Shown piece by piece: positions 17,891 through 23,311 of a stretch of DNA of 64,000 nucleotides. The stretch comes from Desulfoscipio gibsoniae DSM 7213. GTDB taxonomy: Bacteria > Bacillota > Desulfotomaculia > Desulfotomaculales > Desulfallaceae. The notes below the pieces were generated by a model, which saw only the letters and a program-made list of their open reading frames with translations, ran no database searches and was not told where the DNA came from. The stretch spans positions 1,822,001 to 1,886,000 of the forward strand of contig NC_021184.1 of the NCBI RefSeq assembly GCF_000233715.2, given 5' to 3'. Position numbers and translations under genes: made by a program. How positions within the stretch are numbered: position 1 is the stretch's first letter; every line of letters begins with the position of its first letter.

Positions 17891-17938
17891 CGGTAAAAAA
17901 GCGTTGTGGGTGCTGGATTATATAGGGGGAAGGATAAT

Positions 17939-18901
17939 ATGTATGCTGAAGAGAAAATAAAAGTAGCTCGTCTTTCCATCATTTCCAATTCCATATTAAC
18001 AGCTGGCAAATTAGGCGTTGGATTGTCCATGAATTCAATCAGCGTAATATCCGAGGCCATTCATTCGGGGTTGGACTTAATAGCGGCCCTGATCGCCTTT
18101 GCGTCAGTACGGGAATCCAATAAACCGGCTGATGACATGCACAGGTATGGTCACGGTAAATTTGAAAACCTGGCGGCCATCATTGAAGCGGTTTTAATAC
18201 TGGTGGCTGCTGGCTTTATTATTAATGAAGCAATCACTAAAATACATGAAACCGCGCAAATTAAGTCGCTGGGTCTGGGTGCCGTAATCATGGGCGTATC
18301 AGCATTAATGAATCTTTTTGTTTCTTCCAAATTGATGAAAGTTGCCAAAAAGTCTGATTCTCCAGCACTGGCTGCTGATGCCTGGCACTTGCGTACCGAT
18401 GTTTTAACGTCACTGGGTGTATTAGCGGGTATAGGTCTAATAAAGCTAACCGGCTGGCATATAGTTGACCCGTTAATTGCTATTTTGGTGGCTCTATTAA
18501 TCTTAAAGGCGGCCTATGATTTGTTGAGGGAATCCCTGGGCAGTATGCTGGACGTTCGGTTGCCCGACAGCGAAGAACAAGTGATTAGAGAAGTACTACA
18601 TTCCTATGCTGACCGGTTTGTTGACTACCGAAATCTTCGCACCCGTAAGGCAGGACCGCAGCGATATATGGATTTTAATTTAATTGTGCCGCGGGGGAAA
18701 AAGATCATTACTACCCATACTTTGTGTGACAGTATTGAACGGGATTTGCACCAGCATTTGCCGGGGGTGGAAGTAATTATTCATGTCGAACCTTGTGTAC
18801 CTGAGGCGGGTGATTGTGATATTTGCCGGGCGCGTATAAAATTTCAAACGGAAGATATTAATTGTTCTTGCAAGGTATGTGATAAATGCTATGATAGATA
18901 A
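17939..18901 (+). CDS. Cation diffusion facilitator metal efflux protein with Cys-rich C-terminal tail
   Basis: CDF transporters exchange divalent metal ions for protons across the inner membrane. The 320-aa protein has six hydrophobic segments and the paired metal sites HxxxD at residues 42-46 (HSGLD) and 150-154 (HLRTD), the second being typical of zinc/cadmium or iron/manganese groups with His rather than DxxxD. The cytoplasmic domain follows from about 210. The last 35 residues are odd: seven cysteines in a CVPEAGDCDIC and CSCKVCDKC pattern, which could bind metal or a cluster. Start ATG 17939 was chosen over GTG 17906 because GGGGGAAGG precedes it. Confidence 0.9.
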   Translation: MYAEEKIKVARLSIISNSILTAGKLGVGLSMNSISVISEAIHSGLDLIAALIAFASVRESNKPADDMHRYGHGKFENLAAIIEAVLILVAAGFIINEAITKIHETAQIKSLGLGAVIMGVSALMNLFVSSKLMKVAKKSDSPALAADAWHLRTDVLTSLGVLAGIGLIKLTGWHIVDPLIAILVALLILKAAYDLLRESLGSMLDVRLPDSEEQVIREVLHSYADRFVDYRNLRTRKAGPQRYMDFNLIVPRGKKIITTHTLCDSIERDLHQHLPGVEVIIHVEPCVPEAGDCDICRARIKFQTEDINCSCKVCDKCYDR

Positions 18902-19006: not shown

Positions 19007-19735
19007 GTGCTATTTGGGGATGAAGTGGAAGTTTGTTTGCAAAGAATTAGGGAAGGTGACGAATTATCCAGGGAAAAATTAATTACGGATGCCCAACCCT
19101 TTATCGCCGGGGTGGTAGGTCGCTTGTGCGGCCGCAGTTTGAGCTGGGACCGGGACGATGAACTCAGTATAGGCCTGATAGCCTTTAATGAGGCAATTGA
19201 ACGTTTTAAGGGAAAAATGGGGGTACCTTTTACCGCCTTTGCACGCATAGTGATCAGGAGTCGGGTGACTGACTATTTGCGCAAAGAAGCAAAATGGAAC
19301 CGGGTGGATTTGCATATGTCGGGAATTCCACCGGAAGGTAACATTAGCCAGGCGGAAAACAATGCTTCCTGGGATCAATACATAGAAGAAATTGCTAAAC
19401 GCGAAAGAGTAGAAGAAATCAATAATTACAACGAAAAAATAAGCAAACTGGGTATTACATTTCGAGATCTTGTCAAGTCGTCACCCAAGCACCAGGATAC
19501 CCGGCAAACATTAATTAGAGCTGCCTGTTATATTGTGGAGCATAGTTCATTATATGATGCATTGCTGGCCAGCAATAGGTTACCCATGCGAGAATTGGAA
19601 ATGGGGACGGGCATAAGTCGCAAGGTTCTGGAGCGGGGACGCAAATACATTATAGGTATAGCCACCTTATTATATTATCGTGAAGAGTTCATTTATTTGA
19701 ATTCATATGTTAGGTTACCGCAGGGAGAGTGTTGA
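19007..19735 (+). CDS. sigI: RNA polymerase sigma-I factor
   Basis: SigI is a sigma-70-family factor first found for heat response in Bacillus and multiplied in cellulolytic Clostridia, where each copy is held by an RsgI anti-sigma factor. The 242-aa protein has the SigI-type region 2 (DDELSIGLIAFNEAIERFKGKMGVPFTAFA, about residues 46-75, split by a helix turn) and the SigI C-terminal domain with LGITFRDLVKSSPKH near 150. GTG 19007 follows GAGGGAG. The rsgI start codon abuts the sigI stop, as in known sigI-rsgI operons. Confidence 0.92.
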   Translation: MLFGDEVEVCLQRIREGDELSREKLITDAQPFIAGVVGRLCGRSLSWDRDDELSIGLIAFNEAIERFKGKMGVPFTAFARIVIRSRVTDYLRKEAKWNRVDLHMSGIPPEGNISQAENNASWDQYIEEIAKRERVEEINNYNEKISKLGITFRDLVKSSPKHQDTRQTLIRAACYIVEHSSLYDALLASNRLPMRELEMGTGISRKVLERGRKYIIGIATLLYYREEFIYLNSYVRLPQGEC

Positions 19736-20995
19736 ATGATGGGGCTGAACCGGGGATTGGTTTTGGAAGTTAAAAAAAGAAGTTGCGTTGTGATTACCGG
19801 TGACGGTCAATTTCTGGAGGTCCCCAGACCTTGCGATGGTGCGGCGGTGGGACAGGAGATAGTATATACCCGGCCGACCTTGTACCGGTTTAAAGCCACT
19901 TATTTGGCAGTGGCTTCAATAATGGTGGCTGTCTTAGCCTGGTGGGTTTTTAATGCCATGCTCCCCCGGGCAGTGGCTTACGTTGCCCTTGATATCAACC
20001 CCAGCATGGAACTGGGGATTAATGAAGCAAAGGAGATAGTTACTGCAAGGGGCATTAATGATGCTGGTCAAGAACTACTACAAAAGGTAGCGGTAGTGCA
20101 TGATCCACTGGCTGAAGGTGTACAGAAAATCATTGCTGGTTGTATTGAATATCAATATATAATACCAGGGCAAGAAAATCTTGTACTGGTCACAGTTACT
20201 GATACCCAGGGAAATGAATCAAATCGGGATATAAAAGAAATTGAAAGTCAGGGCATAAAAGAAAGTAAAGCTAGTAAAGAGATTGAAGATGTCCATGATT
20301 GTATATATACTTCTATAAAAAATGTTATAAATGAATCCGGGCTGGATGTAGAATTGATTGTAGCCGATACTGATATGGATACTATGAACAAGGCCCGCGA
20401 TAACGGTGTTACCCCTGGTCGATATCTATTGCAGAAGGAAGCGCAGAAAAACGGGGTGCAAATAACCGACCAGGAATTAAGGGAAGAACGCATTCGTAAA
20501 CTGGAAATTAAGAAAAACTTTCGGGCTGGTGATTTGATACAAGAACAAATCACAACTAGTTTATCAGATGAACCTGATAAACCTGATAAACCAGATGAAC
20601 CTGATAAACCTGATAAACCTGATAAACCTGATAAACCTGATAAACCTGATAAACCTGATAAACAGCGTAAAGCTGATGGGCCGGGAAACTATAGTAAGGA
20701 TGATATCACTAGTAATAATGACCGGTTGGATAAATTTGATGAAACTACAAAACCGGTATCATTATCACCGGGGGAGGAAAATGCGAACATAAACAATCAA
20801 GCGGAACATAATGCAAATAATAGAAATAACGATGCCCGGGGAAAGCAGTCTGTTCCGCGGGATAATGGCGATTTTTTGGAAAGTAGCGGGTCGAATTCAA
20901 GGGACAAACAATTAGATAACAAAGATAATGTTAAACAAAATAAACCCAGCCGCAATGAAAGGAAGGAAACTACTGATATGGCTCCCCCGCAATAG
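19736..20995 (+). CDS. RsgI-type anti-sigma factor with proline-lysine-aspartate repeat domain
   Basis: The 419-residue protein has an N-terminal cytoplasmic RsgI domain (residues 3-50, GLVLEVKKRSCVVIT), one transmembrane helix (54-77) and an exterior domain starting YVALDINPSMELGIN (81-95), the conserved RsgI extracellular motif. Residues about 280-311 are a tandem Asp-Lys-Pro repeat, then comes a polar Asn/Asp/Lys-rich tail to the end. In Clostridia the external domain senses polysaccharide through a binding module or mediates site-2 cleavage; here there is no carbohydrate-binding module, and the repeat is probably a wall-spanning spacer. It holds SigI at the membrane and is cotranscribed with it. 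Confidence 0.88.
   Translation: MMGLNRGLVLEVKKRSCVVITGDGQFLEVPRPCDGAAVGQEIVYTRPTLYRFKATYLAVASIMVAVLAWWVFNAMLPRAVAYVALDINPSMELGINEAKEIVTARGINDAGQELLQKVAVVHDPLAEGVQKIIAGCIEYQYIIPGQENLVLVTVTDTQGNESNRDIKEIESQGIKESKASKEIEDVHDCIYTSIKNVINESGLDVELIVADTDMDTMNKARDNGVTPGRYLLQKEAQKNGVQITDQELREERIRKLEIKKNFRAGDLIQEQITTSLSDEPDKPDKPDEPDKPDKPDKPDKPDKPDKPDKQRKADGPGNYSKDDITSNNDRLDKFDETTKPVSLSPGEENANINNQAEHNANNRNNDARGKQSVPRDNGDFLESSGSNSRDKQLDNKDNVKQNKPSRNERKETTDMAPPQ
20571..20663 (+). repeat. Tandem 9-bp repeats encoding Asp-Lys-Pro in rsgI
   Basis: Ten or so near-identical 9-bp units (CCTGATAAA, some CCAGATGAA or CCTGATGAA) encode DKP/DEP. The near-perfect nucleotide identity suggests recent slippage and a length-variable wall spacer. 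Confidence 0.92.
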
Positions 20996-21010
20996 CGGGG
21001 GATTATTCTT
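20983..21010 (+). terminator. Rho-independent terminator of sigI-rsgI
   Basis: A GC-rich 8-bp stem TCCCCCGC/GCGGGGGA with a four-base loop carrying the rsgI stop codon is followed by TTATTCTT. Confidence 0.75.
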
Positions 21011-21047
21011 AAGTTGCTTACAGAAATTGCATCCGGAGTGTATTAGG

Positions 21048-21076
21048 TTGATTTTTTAAGCATAATTAAGTATAAT
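21048..21076 (+). promoter_or_regulatory. Strong vegetative promoter upstream of the DUF4198-selenoglutaredoxin genes
   Basis: TTGATT (21048-21053) and TATAAT (21071-21076) are separated by exactly 17 bp. Predicted +1 is near 21083, 80 bp before the internal terminator hairpin. Confidence 0.7.
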
Positions 21077-21082
21077 TTTCCA

Positions 21083-21211
21083 AGGTGCACGAGAGACTCG
21101 GAGCAATTGCTGTTTAGGGCTACAGTAGCTTATACATGCATATACTATGAATATCTACGTAAGCCATGAAGGCATCCGGTCAATGATATGACAGGTGTTC
21201 ATGGTTTTTTT
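21083..21211 (+). ncRNA. Candidate short terminated leader transcript (small RNA or attenuator)
   Basis: Between the predicted start site at 21083 and a terminator ending at 21211 lies about 130 nt with local stems (CTGT/ACAG around 21109-21125 and GCTTA/TAAGC around 21127-21163) and no ORF. It may be the terminated form of the leader of the downstream genes, or a free-standing small RNA. It does not match a class I know. Confidence 0.35.
21164..21211 (+). terminator. Intrinsic terminator within the leader of the DUF4198 gene
   Basis: CCATGAA pairs with TTCATGG, an inner stem continues with a small bulge (CATC/GGTG, GTCA/TGAC), and seven T residues follow directly. A competing pairing TCCGGT/ACCGGA overlaps the stem, consistent with conditional termination. 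Confidence 0.75.
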
Positions 21212-21396
21212 GTAACCGGACGTAAGCGCTAATATCAGCTATGTTGTTTATTGATTAGCAGGGTTGTGTGTTATAACTGTGGATGGGAAGGAAAAGATAT
21301 CTTATATATTATACTAATAAGCAACTTTGTTTAACTATTGTCCATAGCTCGTTTAAGTAAAACGGGCAAGAGAATATAAGGAAGGTGACTTGGAAA

Positions 21397-22026
21397 ATGA
21401 CAGAACAAGCTAAAGTCAGGCACGCCATTTGGCTGGAGCCCACCCACCTGCATTTTCACCATGGTGATAACATTGAAGTTAAAGTATTGTGGGGTCTGGC
21501 AATGCATAGTGAAGGTGGCGTGAATCCCGATTTATTGAAAGGATATGTAATAGATCCCAACGGCGTTGAACTGCCGGCGCAAATTACCCCTGCCCCGGAT
21601 GGTTTACATTATGTGCTTGCTTTTAGCTGTGGACACGAGGGTATGTACACTGTACAGGTGGAAAGTGACGCTGCTTCCGGGCAGTGGGCACGGGTACTTG
21701 TGCCCGTTGGACACCATGTGCACGGCCATGGTAAGGCCCTTAACCGGGGTATGGAAATTGTGCCGGGCACTTATGGAGAATTCCACCCTGGGGATGCCGT
21801 TGTCTTAACCGTACTAAATAACGGTATACCAATGGCCGGGGCTAGGGTACGGGCAACTTACCACCTTTATGAGGGAACCGGGTTTGCCCACAGTTTAACG
21901 GCTGACGATCAGGGCAGGGTGCAATTTGTTTTTGATGCCCGGGGGCATTGGTTGTTCCAGGTGGATAGTGTCATGGATAATCGTCAAATTACAGCCACGT
22001 TAGTTATACCCGGAGTCAGGGGGTAA
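21397..22026 (+). CDS. DUF4198-type histidine-rich protein
   Basis: With ATG 21397 (AAGGAAGG about ten bases upstream) the protein has 209 residues and no signal peptide, so it should be cytoplasmic. It begins with the DUF4198 pattern HAIWLEPTHLHFHHGDNIEVKVLWG and has a second beta-sandwich half, MEIVPGTYGEFHPGDAVVLTVLNNG (about 121-145). The joining loop is very rich in histidine (VGHHVHGHGK). DUF4198 proteins have been linked to nickel/cobalt uptake, but those are usually exported. Seven bases separate it from the selenoglutaredoxin gene, so they are cotranscribed. Its function is unknown; the histidines make metal binding plausible. Confidence 0.7.
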   Translation: MTEQAKVRHAIWLEPTHLHFHHGDNIEVKVLWGLAMHSEGGVNPDLLKGYVIDPNGVELPAQITPAPDGLHYVLAFSCGHEGMYTVQVESDAASGQWARVLVPVGHHVHGHGKALNRGMEIVPGTYGEFHPGDAVVLTVLNNGIPMAGARVRATYHLYEGTGFAHSLTADDQGRVQFVFDARGHWLFQVDSVMDNRQITATLVIPGVRG

Positions 22027-22033
22027 TTGATAA

Positions 22034-22258
22034 ATGAGCGATGTTGTGATTTACACCAAGACGGGTTGTCCTTATTGTCAAAAGGCAGTGGAGGATTACC
22101 GCGCGAAGGGCATTATTTTTAAAGAAGTTAATATCAGTGTAGATACCGCGGCGAAACAAATGGTCAAAGAAAAACTCGGTGCCCGTAAAGTGCCTGTGAT
22201 TGTGGAAGATGGCAAATTAACCAGCACGGGGTATAACGGTGGCGGGTGAGGAGTTTAA
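22034..22258 (+). CDS. Uxx-star glutaredoxin-like selenoprotein (in-frame UGA read as Sec)
   Basis: A thioredoxin-fold protein of 74 residues opens VVIYTKTGCPYCQKAVEDY, with the glutaredoxin CPYC at residues 12-15 and the cis-proline segment KVPVIV near 55. The first stop is a TGA at 22247-22249, but the frame goes on with GGA GTT TAA, so the protein would end Gly-Sec-Gly-Val-stop. That is exactly the tail that defines Uxx-star glutaredoxin-like (seleno)proteins, selenocysteine three residues from the end. A SECIS-like hairpin starts six bases after the TGA. A Cys-only reading would end at 22249 with an odd GGG tail. Selenocysteine decoding also needs selA, selB, selC and selD, which are outside this window. 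Confidence 0.85.
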
Positions 22259-22283
22259 GAGCACCGGCGTCTGCCGGTCTTAA
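22255..22283 (+). promoter_or_regulatory. Bacterial SECIS element of the Uxx-star selenoprotein gene
   Basis: A hairpin of outer stem TTAAG/CTTAA, a three-base 5' bulge (AGC) and inner stem ACCGGC/GCCGGT closes a four-base GTCT loop at 22269-22272. The loop lies 19 nt after the TGA, inside the 16-37 nt range known for bacterial SECIS elements, and the loop resembles the GGTCT of fdhF. It contains the TAA stop. Confidence 0.75.
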
Positions 22284-22285
22284 TG

Positions 22286-22315
22286 CCACGCCGTAGGGCG
22301 TGGTTTATTGTTTTG
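22286..22315 (+). terminator. Rho-independent terminator after the selenoprotein gene
   Basis: CCACGCC/GGCGTGG with a GTAG loop is followed by TTTATTGTTTT. It lies just beyond the SECIS hairpin and is distinct from it. Confidence 0.85.
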
Positions 22316-22360
22316 CCGTAGATTGGGTGATATACTTTTTAATTGGGAGGTATGAAAGGT

Positions 22361-23311
22361 TTGCTACCTGTATATCAAATGGTTATTCCAACTCCTTATC
22401 CCGTGGGGCCGGTGAATGCATATTTAATCAAAGGTGACCCCATTACACTGGTCGATGTCGGCCCTGATATGCCGCAGGCCTATAAAGTCTTAAGGGATAT
22501 GTTGTCATCATTGGACTGCCGGATTGAAGATATAAAAAGGATTGTAATTACCCACTCTCATCCCGACCACTGTGGCCTGGCGGCCCAAGTTGCTAAAGAG
22601 GCCAATGCAGTGGTGCTTATTCATTCTTTGGAAGAGAGTAAGTTAAGTGGTGAACCGAATTTTTTTAAAGAGCGAATTTCCTTTGTTTTGGAAACCGGCA
22701 TTCCGCCGGAGGTAATACAGGAGATAATGGCAGATAGGGACAAGTTGCCCCATCCTTCTGTTCAAGGTGTGCATACCAGGTTAATCAACGGGGGGGAAAG
22801 TATAGATTTTGACGGGGGCGAATTGCAGGTTATGCATCTTCCCGGGCACAGTCCCGGGCATCTTTGCTTGTATAACCCGGAGCAAAAGTTCCTTTTCTCG
22901 GGGGACTTTTTACTGCCTCATATTACCCCCAACCCGCTGATGGAGCCTGACCATGATAAACCTGGCTGTCGCTTGCCGGCTCTCAAACAATACCTGTCCG
23001 GGCTGGATACGCTGGAGAAGATGGATATTGCCATGGTGTTTCCCGGCCACGGAGGCACTTTTAACGATTTTAACAGTGTAATCAACGTGGGGCGCAGGCA
23101 CCACAATGCCCAGTTTGAACGAATTAAAGATAAACTGCGGGCGGGAGAACTTAATGCCTTTCAATTAAGCAGGACCATATATCCCGGCCTGCGAGGCTGG
23201 CAGGTTTTCTTGGGTTTGTCAGAAATACAGGCCCACCTGGATTTGCTGGTGGAAAAGGGGCAAATCAACTGCTCCCAAAGTCAAGGTGTTAATTACTACA
23301 GTATTTCATAG
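22361..23311 (+). CDS. MBL-fold metallo-hydrolase
   Basis: The 316-residue protein has the metallo-beta-lactamase metal site HSHPDH (residues 65-70), a second metal histidine in HLPGHSPGH (near 153-161) and an aspartate in FSGDFLLP near 178, with PGHGG near 224. The C-terminal third (RIKDKLRAGELNAFQLSRTIYPGLRGWQVFLGLSEIQAHLDLL) is a helical winged region found in glyoxalase II-like and LACTB2-like members. The natural substrate is unknown; a hydrolase of thioesters or RNA is possible. The best ribosome-binding site GGGAGG (22345-22350) supports TTG 22361; ATG 22352 is too close to it. Confidence 0.82.
   Translation: MLPVYQMVIPTPYPVGPVNAYLIKGDPITLVDVGPDMPQAYKVLRDMLSSLDCRIEDIKRIVITHSHPDHCGLAAQVAKEANAVVLIHSLEESKLSGEPNFFKERISFVLETGIPPEVIQEIMADRDKLPHPSVQGVHTRLINGGESIDFDGGELQVMHLPGHSPGHLCLYNPEQKFLFSGDFLLPHITPNPLMEPDHDKPGCRLPALKQYLSGLDTLEKMDIAMVFPGHGGTFNDFNSVINVGRRHHNAQFERIKDKLRAGELNAFQLSRTIYPGLRGWQVFLGLSEIQAHLDLLVEKGQINCSQSQGVNYYSIS

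Follow-up and report, generated by a model that had tools for sequence, protein, structure and literature searches.

A short Uxx-star glutaredoxin-like gene with a predicted C-terminal selenocysteine codon and a candidate SECIS hairpin lying mostly behind its stop codon

Ordinary glutaredoxins extend into a last helix, and the mammalian thioredoxin reductase, an unrelated flavoenzyme, carries a C-terminal GCUG tail. The Uxx-star family of glutaredoxin-like proteins, in which two residues stand between a selenocysteine (Sec) or Cys and the stop, is already described in databases (NCBIfam NF041212, Uxx_star), so that the gene reported here is a corrected gene end and not a new kind of gene. For the bacterial SECIS, the legend to Fig. 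2 of a recent review (PMC13188914) gives a loop of 3–9 nt, a stem of 4–16 bp, a G among the first two loop bases, a distance of 16–37 nt from the UGA, and a minimum free energy of at most −7.5 kcal/mol; a passage of the same review suggests that the Sec of Uxx-star proteins may be a metal ligand.

Within the window, that is, the whole stretch of 64,000 nucleotides analyzed, an earlier note had pointed to a Uxx-star frame running through a TGA, and on re-reading the sequence the coordinates of the frame, the TGA, and the Gly-Val-stop tail proved exact. The gene itself comprises the following features:

22018..22023, + strand: likely ribosome-binding site AGGGGG, 10 nt 5' of the ATG (direct sequence reading)
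22034..22258, + strand: uxx-star gene, predicted 74-aa glutaredoxin-like selenoprotein with Sec72 (translation, NF041212, PF00462)
22067..22078, + strand: CPYC motif, residues 12–15 (translation, alignment of relatives)
22247..22249, + strand: TGA, predicted Sec codon, residue 72 (30 TGA and 2 Cys among 32 members)
22256..22258, + strand: predicted true stop TAA, within the lower hairpin stem (sequence, family tails)

The purine-rich AGGGGG is located just 5' of the stop codon of the upstream gene. From the ATG at 22034 the protein begins MSDVVIYTKTGCPYC, with CPYC at residues 12–15 as previously placed, and the TGA forms codon 72, after which GGA GTT TAA follows in frame at 22250–22258; translated with UGA as Sec, the C-terminal tail reads Gly-Gly-Gly-Sec-Gly-Val-stop. 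Mechanical ORF calling returned 71 aa against 74 aa with U72, which bears out the truncation foreseen for standard gene calling, and residue 72 is lost because the mechanical call stops at 22249. The uxx-star gene at 22034–22258 is real, and its UGA at codon 72 is very probably decoded as Sec and not as a stop. The explanation that we hold with high confidence joins three elements, namely, a short Uxx-star glutaredoxin-like selenoprotein, a SECIS that would direct the insertion of Sec72, and a predicted Cys12–Sec72 pair.

The match to NF041212 scored 78.8 bits (curated cut-off 66) and aligned residues 4–74 with positions 1–70 of the 70-position profile, reaching its last residue, and the window gene exhibits the predicted Sec, the two residues, and the stop that mark the family. 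A match to the Pfam Glutaredoxin profile (PF00462; 56.0 bits, cut-off 22.9) assigns the protein to the glutaredoxin fold. Membership in the named subfamilies was rejected for UXX-star family 1 (NF041114; 63.3 bits, cut-off 72), family 2 (NF041211; 53.2 bits, cut-off 100), and family 3 (NF047338; 47.6 bits, cut-off 97). The Uxx-star identity proposed beforehand thus stands for the general model and not for subfamilies 1, 2, and 3, and because all three subfamily scores fall below their cut-offs, the clade of the window gene carries the general name only. Three relatives from the same taxonomic family (L013, L014, and L018) also scored above the Uxx_star cut-off and below that of family 1.

The Uxx_star profile was run against 101 genomes of the class, the own genome among them, and produced some match in 78 genomes and matches above the cut-off in 27, the latter totaling 29. 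These 29, together with the next four matches with loci (64.6–65.5 bits), make up the 33 loci that were read, own gene included. A TGA followed by two codons and a stop was found in 30 of them, a count free of tail-conditioned selection except for the tail of L047, which came from a tail-conditioned pattern. Two loci (L044 and L045) have TGT or TGC at the TGA column, then two codons and the stop, and the last one (L060) is a glutaredoxin of another kind that lacks the tail. Cys at the TGA position in relatives had been named in advance as a check on the Sec reading, and these two loci supply it; homologues ending at the glycine before the TGA without Sec or Cys, named in advance as evidence against that reading, numbered none among the 33. 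Further down the score list, nine of 16 loci were read on the correct strand (L022 aside), and all nine are other glutaredoxins. Six of these nine (L023, L024, L026, L027, L030, and L031) are glutaredoxins with a TGA in the active site, T-P/K-T-Sec-P-H-C.

The alignment of 32 members contains four invariant columns: 12, P54, G66, and 72. Residue 12 is scored as Cys in all 32 (TGA-encoded in three), column 72 holds TGA in 30 (own included) and a Cys codon in two, and position 15 is Cys in 18 and Ser or Thr in 14. Three members (L046, L047, and L048) have two TGA codons before the stop, combining a UPYT active site with the tail Sec. The invariance of columns 12 and 72, the variable Cys15, and the UPYT relatives indicate that the conserved chemistry would involve residue 12 with residue 72 and not the second Cys. 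The AlphaFold2 model of the window protein has a mean pLDDT of 87.7, and its best 17 PDB rows (Z 10.0–11.9) comprise glutaredoxins, NrdH-type redoxins, the thioredoxin-like BC3987, and hybrid Prx5. In 49 of the best 50 rows the structural alignment extends to residue 69 or 70 and stops short of the Sec, and a profile search of solved chains (52 sequences) gave no best stretch past profile position 70. We infer from these comparisons that Cys12 and Sec72 could form a selenenylsulfide or a metal-bridged pair.

The gene's neighborhood bears on which of these chemistries prevails and adds one further feature:

21385..22026, + strand: His-rich DUF4198-domain gene, probable operon partner (PF10670, 62.6 bits, cut-off 34)

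This gene ends 7 nt 5' of the uxx-star ATG. A DUF4198 neighbor accompanies 11 of the 12 uxx-star genes of the GGG-Sec-G type (own included; L056 is without it), and in those 11 the same metallo-beta-lactamase-fold gene lies behind the uxx-star gene. Of the 16 His of the DUF4198 protein, six are unchanged across 11 sequences, in motifs that include WLEP..LHFH and GHH..G. A cation-efflux gene is found at 17906–18901, with about 2.5 kb between it and the DUF4198 gene downstream, and four other genomes whose stretch reached that far also have one near the DUF4198 gene. At 19007–20995 the window additionally contains a sigma-70 region 2 gene followed by an RsgI-like anti-sigma gene with a C-terminal DKP-rich repeat. 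The conserved linkage of the DUF4198 and Sec glutaredoxin genes fits, but does not prove, a partnership in metal handling. That Sec72 acts mainly as a soft-metal or metalloid ligand, in a chaperone or in sequestration, and not as a catalytic redox residue is quite conceivable, if short of probable: the His-rich neighbor, the nearby cation-efflux genes, and the suggestion in the review (PMC13188914) speak in its favor, whereas the protein shares its fold with redox-active glutaredoxins and NrdH, and only the GGG-Sec-G type showed the DUF4198 link. This alternative concerns the chemistry only, and Sec decoding is common to it and to the explanation that we prefer.

The decoding machinery was sought in the complete genome (4,855,529 bases, one contig). 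A tRNA-Sec with a UCA anticodon was detected at C1:2125971-2126065 (67.9 bits, gathering score 47), and selB (2156121–2158004) and selA (2158043–2159422) stand side by side about 30 kb away from it; among the 10 ORFs scanned beside the tRNA-Sec, mostly heme genes, there were no sel genes. Two selD genes scored above the cut-off, and in both the matched stretch has a single in-frame TGA, at its codon 11. These copies (L065 at C1:1367415 and L066 at C1:4308884) read GUAAK and GUACK, and both TGA codons are followed by SECIS-like hairpins, whose loops lie at distances of 33 and 32 nt, the second copy having in addition a slightly stronger hairpin with the loop UGC at 17 nt. The genome accordingly has the complete set that characterizes a bacterial selenoprotein genome, selA, selB, selD, and tRNA-Sec, as a search for these genes proposed beforehand was meant to establish. 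Since selB scored above the cut-off in 99 of the 101 genomes of the class, and thus in nearly all, a selB co-occurrence test is powerless across the class.

Three tRNA-Cys genes with long variable arms also matched the tRNA-Sec model, which is why we considered that the UGA might be translated as Cys by an unusual tRNA-Cys of the selC* type; such tRNAs, some with UCA anticodons, occur in anaerobes according to PMC7609411. This reading is very improbable and was rejected, for none of the three has a UCA anticodon (they read GCA, ACA, and GCA), the one tRNA with UCA in the loci of the best six of 19 matches (ARAGORN) is of the tRNA-Sec form, its CCA preceded by G, and selA, selB, and selD are all present. 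The three genes (L003:1500-1593, L005:1501-1592, and L006:1501-1596, the first two at C1:1322398 and C1:2999043 of the own genome) resemble the selC* type as presented in that paper, and genes similar to the tRNA-Cys of L006 occur in 56 of the 101 genomes. The two diverged copies immediately precede an ORF with a Pfam Sulf_transp domain or lie at its start, and one of them carries the unusual anticodon ACA; a role in regulation or decoding is possible.

Returning to Sec insertion, the tails themselves carry a coding signature. In the 12 GGG-Sec-G-type genes the bases after the TGA follow GG(N) (A/G)T(T/C/A) T(A/G)A, so that the first and second codon positions are nearly fixed and the third is free: the codon after the TGA has an invariant GG with four different third bases, and the next one has [AG]T with three. 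For a second set, 80 loci were picked from named genomes with a pattern in the CPYC region that excluded the tail; 57 were read, of which 53 have a TGA and, a few codons later, a stop, and four (L106, L108, L131, and L145) are other glutaredoxins. These tails span Firmicutes, Zixibacteria, Chloroflexi, Actinomycetes, and others, and are slightly longer in Acidobacteria. Pooling yielded 78 distinct TGA genes from several phyla, with the next stop at codon 3 (64 genes), 4 (three), 5 (eight), or 6 (three). This pool retained only genes with the TGA 8–24 residues past the VP motif, after removal of duplicates, and it speaks for TGA-containing genes alone and says nothing about relatives without the TGA. 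As a control for chance, in none of ten TGA-terminated window ORFs of at least 150 aa was the third codon past the TGA a stop.

Behind the gene, two hairpins were delimited:

22255..22283, + strand: candidate SECIS hairpin, mostly 3' of the stop codon (apical hairpin −10.0 kcal/mol, published bacterial SECIS limits)
22285..22304, + strand: terminator-like hairpin with T-rich tail (two in the region against a shuffle mean of 1.7, weak alone)

The 5' arm of the first consists of TTAAG (22255–22259), a 3-nt bulge AGC (22260–22262), and ACCGGC (22263–22268), the loop is GTCT (22269–22272), and the 3' arm is formed by GCCGGT (22273–22278) and CTTAA (22279–22283), giving a 6-bp apical stem ACCGGC/GCCGGT above a 5-bp lower stem that encloses the stop codon. 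The GUCU loop starts 19 nt past the TGA, the distance already reported in the earlier note, whose positions for this hairpin were confirmed on the sequence. With a 4-nt loop, a 6-bp stem, this 19-nt distance, and −10.0 kcal/mol, the hairpin falls within the limits of the review. The separate terminator claimed to follow is indeed present, and it starts at 22285, one base before the claimed 22286; a similar hairpin occupies the same place in several relatives (e.g., L014, L018, and L022). Rfam at its gathering threshold returned no match over 20900–22450.

On its own the window hairpin stands out only a little (z = −1.28, with 22 of 200 shuffles folding equally well), and the case for Sec rests on the comparative evidence. 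The 30 TGA genes, window included, were scanned with a strict contiguous stem and all published limits, and a fitting hairpin at −7.5 kcal/mol or below was found in 18, against 168 of 3000 dinucleotide shuffles and none of the 10 window ORFs; at −5 kcal/mol the corresponding numbers were 23, 465, and three of the 10 ordinary TGA-ended window ORFs. Under this contiguous-stem rule, 12 of the 30 genes were without a fitting hairpin at −7.5 kcal/mol and seven at −5. When neither the G nor the distance was demanded, one of the 78 pooled genes gave no hairpin at all, and the most stable hairpin of the other 77 had its loop 16–25 nt after the TGA in 65, at 41–45 nt in nine (the terminator, for the window gene), and elsewhere in three; in 70 of the 77 a G occupied the first or second loop position. 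The covariation term was small (−0.34 kcal/mol over five pairs, four of which vary on both sides) in an imperfect MAFFT alignment. That the TGA is an ordinary stop, with the gene ending at Gly71 and Gly-Val-TAA and the hairpin accidental or part of a terminator region, would agree with the 71-aa ORF and the mildly unusual hairpin but is hardly credible given the two-codon tail in 30 of 33 loci with Cys at the same column in two, tail variation nearly all at third codon positions, a distinct terminator-like hairpin downstream of the SECIS hairpin, and no locus ending at the glycine, and the relatives' tails led us to reject a chance tail.

Under the Sec reading, to which both the comparison and the machinery point, the ribosome would meet the UGA at codon 72, the hairpin would recruit SelB with Sec-tRNA(UCA), and Sec would be inserted, followed by Gly and Val and by termination at the UAA. 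Because translation would end at this UAA, two codons past the Sec, the SECIS would lie mostly in the 3' untranslated region. The product is expected to be a thioredoxin fold that ends after its last strand and continues into a Gly-rich Sec tail. Its functional pair would comprise residue 12, the first Cys of CPYC, and Sec72: the two could form a reversible selenenylsulfide or jointly bind a soft metal or metalloid, and Cys15 would be an optional resolving thiol. In the window clade, the protein would probably handle metal jointly with the His-rich DUF4198 protein of the likely operon.

In 18 of the 64 distinct genes with a stop at codon 3 that stop is itself TGA, as in 10 of the 30 of the class set; the window gene has TAA. 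In those ten (L015, L020, L021, L029, L048, L049, L051, L052, L055, and L057) the Sec-UGA and the stop-UGA are 9 nt apart, start to start, and in frame. The 18 genes have this spacing too, and in most of them the second UGA is 7–12 nt from the loop, below the published 16-nt limit. Past the second TGA the tails vary in length and no shared sequence was seen beyond the hairpin region, for which reason the second TGA was taken as the stop; since the two UGAs are only 9 nt apart, a single hairpin would have to serve the first while leaving the second alone. Such paired UGAs, apparently read differently, offer a clean measure of the minimum SECIS distance in living cells. It is a tentative and rather doubtful proposal that Uxx-star mRNAs are natural rulers of SECIS reach and that, jointly, the window clade represents an undescribed two-part metal or metalloid unit of a DUF4198 protein and a Sec-tailed glutaredoxin. 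The location of the SECIS mostly behind the stop codon is a testable feature of the wider Uxx-star set, and mechanical calling drops residue 72, one of the four invariant columns among 32 members. What merits further study is not the family or its decoding, both of which are on record, but the clade, the likely operon, and the paired UGA codons.

Compared with known systems, the mammalian thioredoxin reductase would operate on a similar principle, with a mobile Gly-rich Sec tail facing a CxxC, and its GCUG tail has no family relation to Uxx-star. The glutaredoxins cGrx1 (7c10) and cGrx2 (4tr0), presumably from Clostridium oremlandii, share the fold (1.8 and 1.4 Å over 67 and 68 residues; 33% and 40% sequence identity), but their chains are longer (84 and about 92 residues) and the alignments end at residue 69 of the window protein, short of the Sec tail. 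UXX-star family 1 (NF041114) has an architecture in common with the window protein, and the relatives L041 (Sec, 114.0 bits) and L044 (Cys, 100.7 bits) exceed the family cut-off with CPYT and CSYT, respectively, where the window protein has CPYC. Against the general NF041212 family no differing defining feature was found, and the window protein shares with it the score class, the full-length alignment, and the predicted Sec three residues from the C-terminus.
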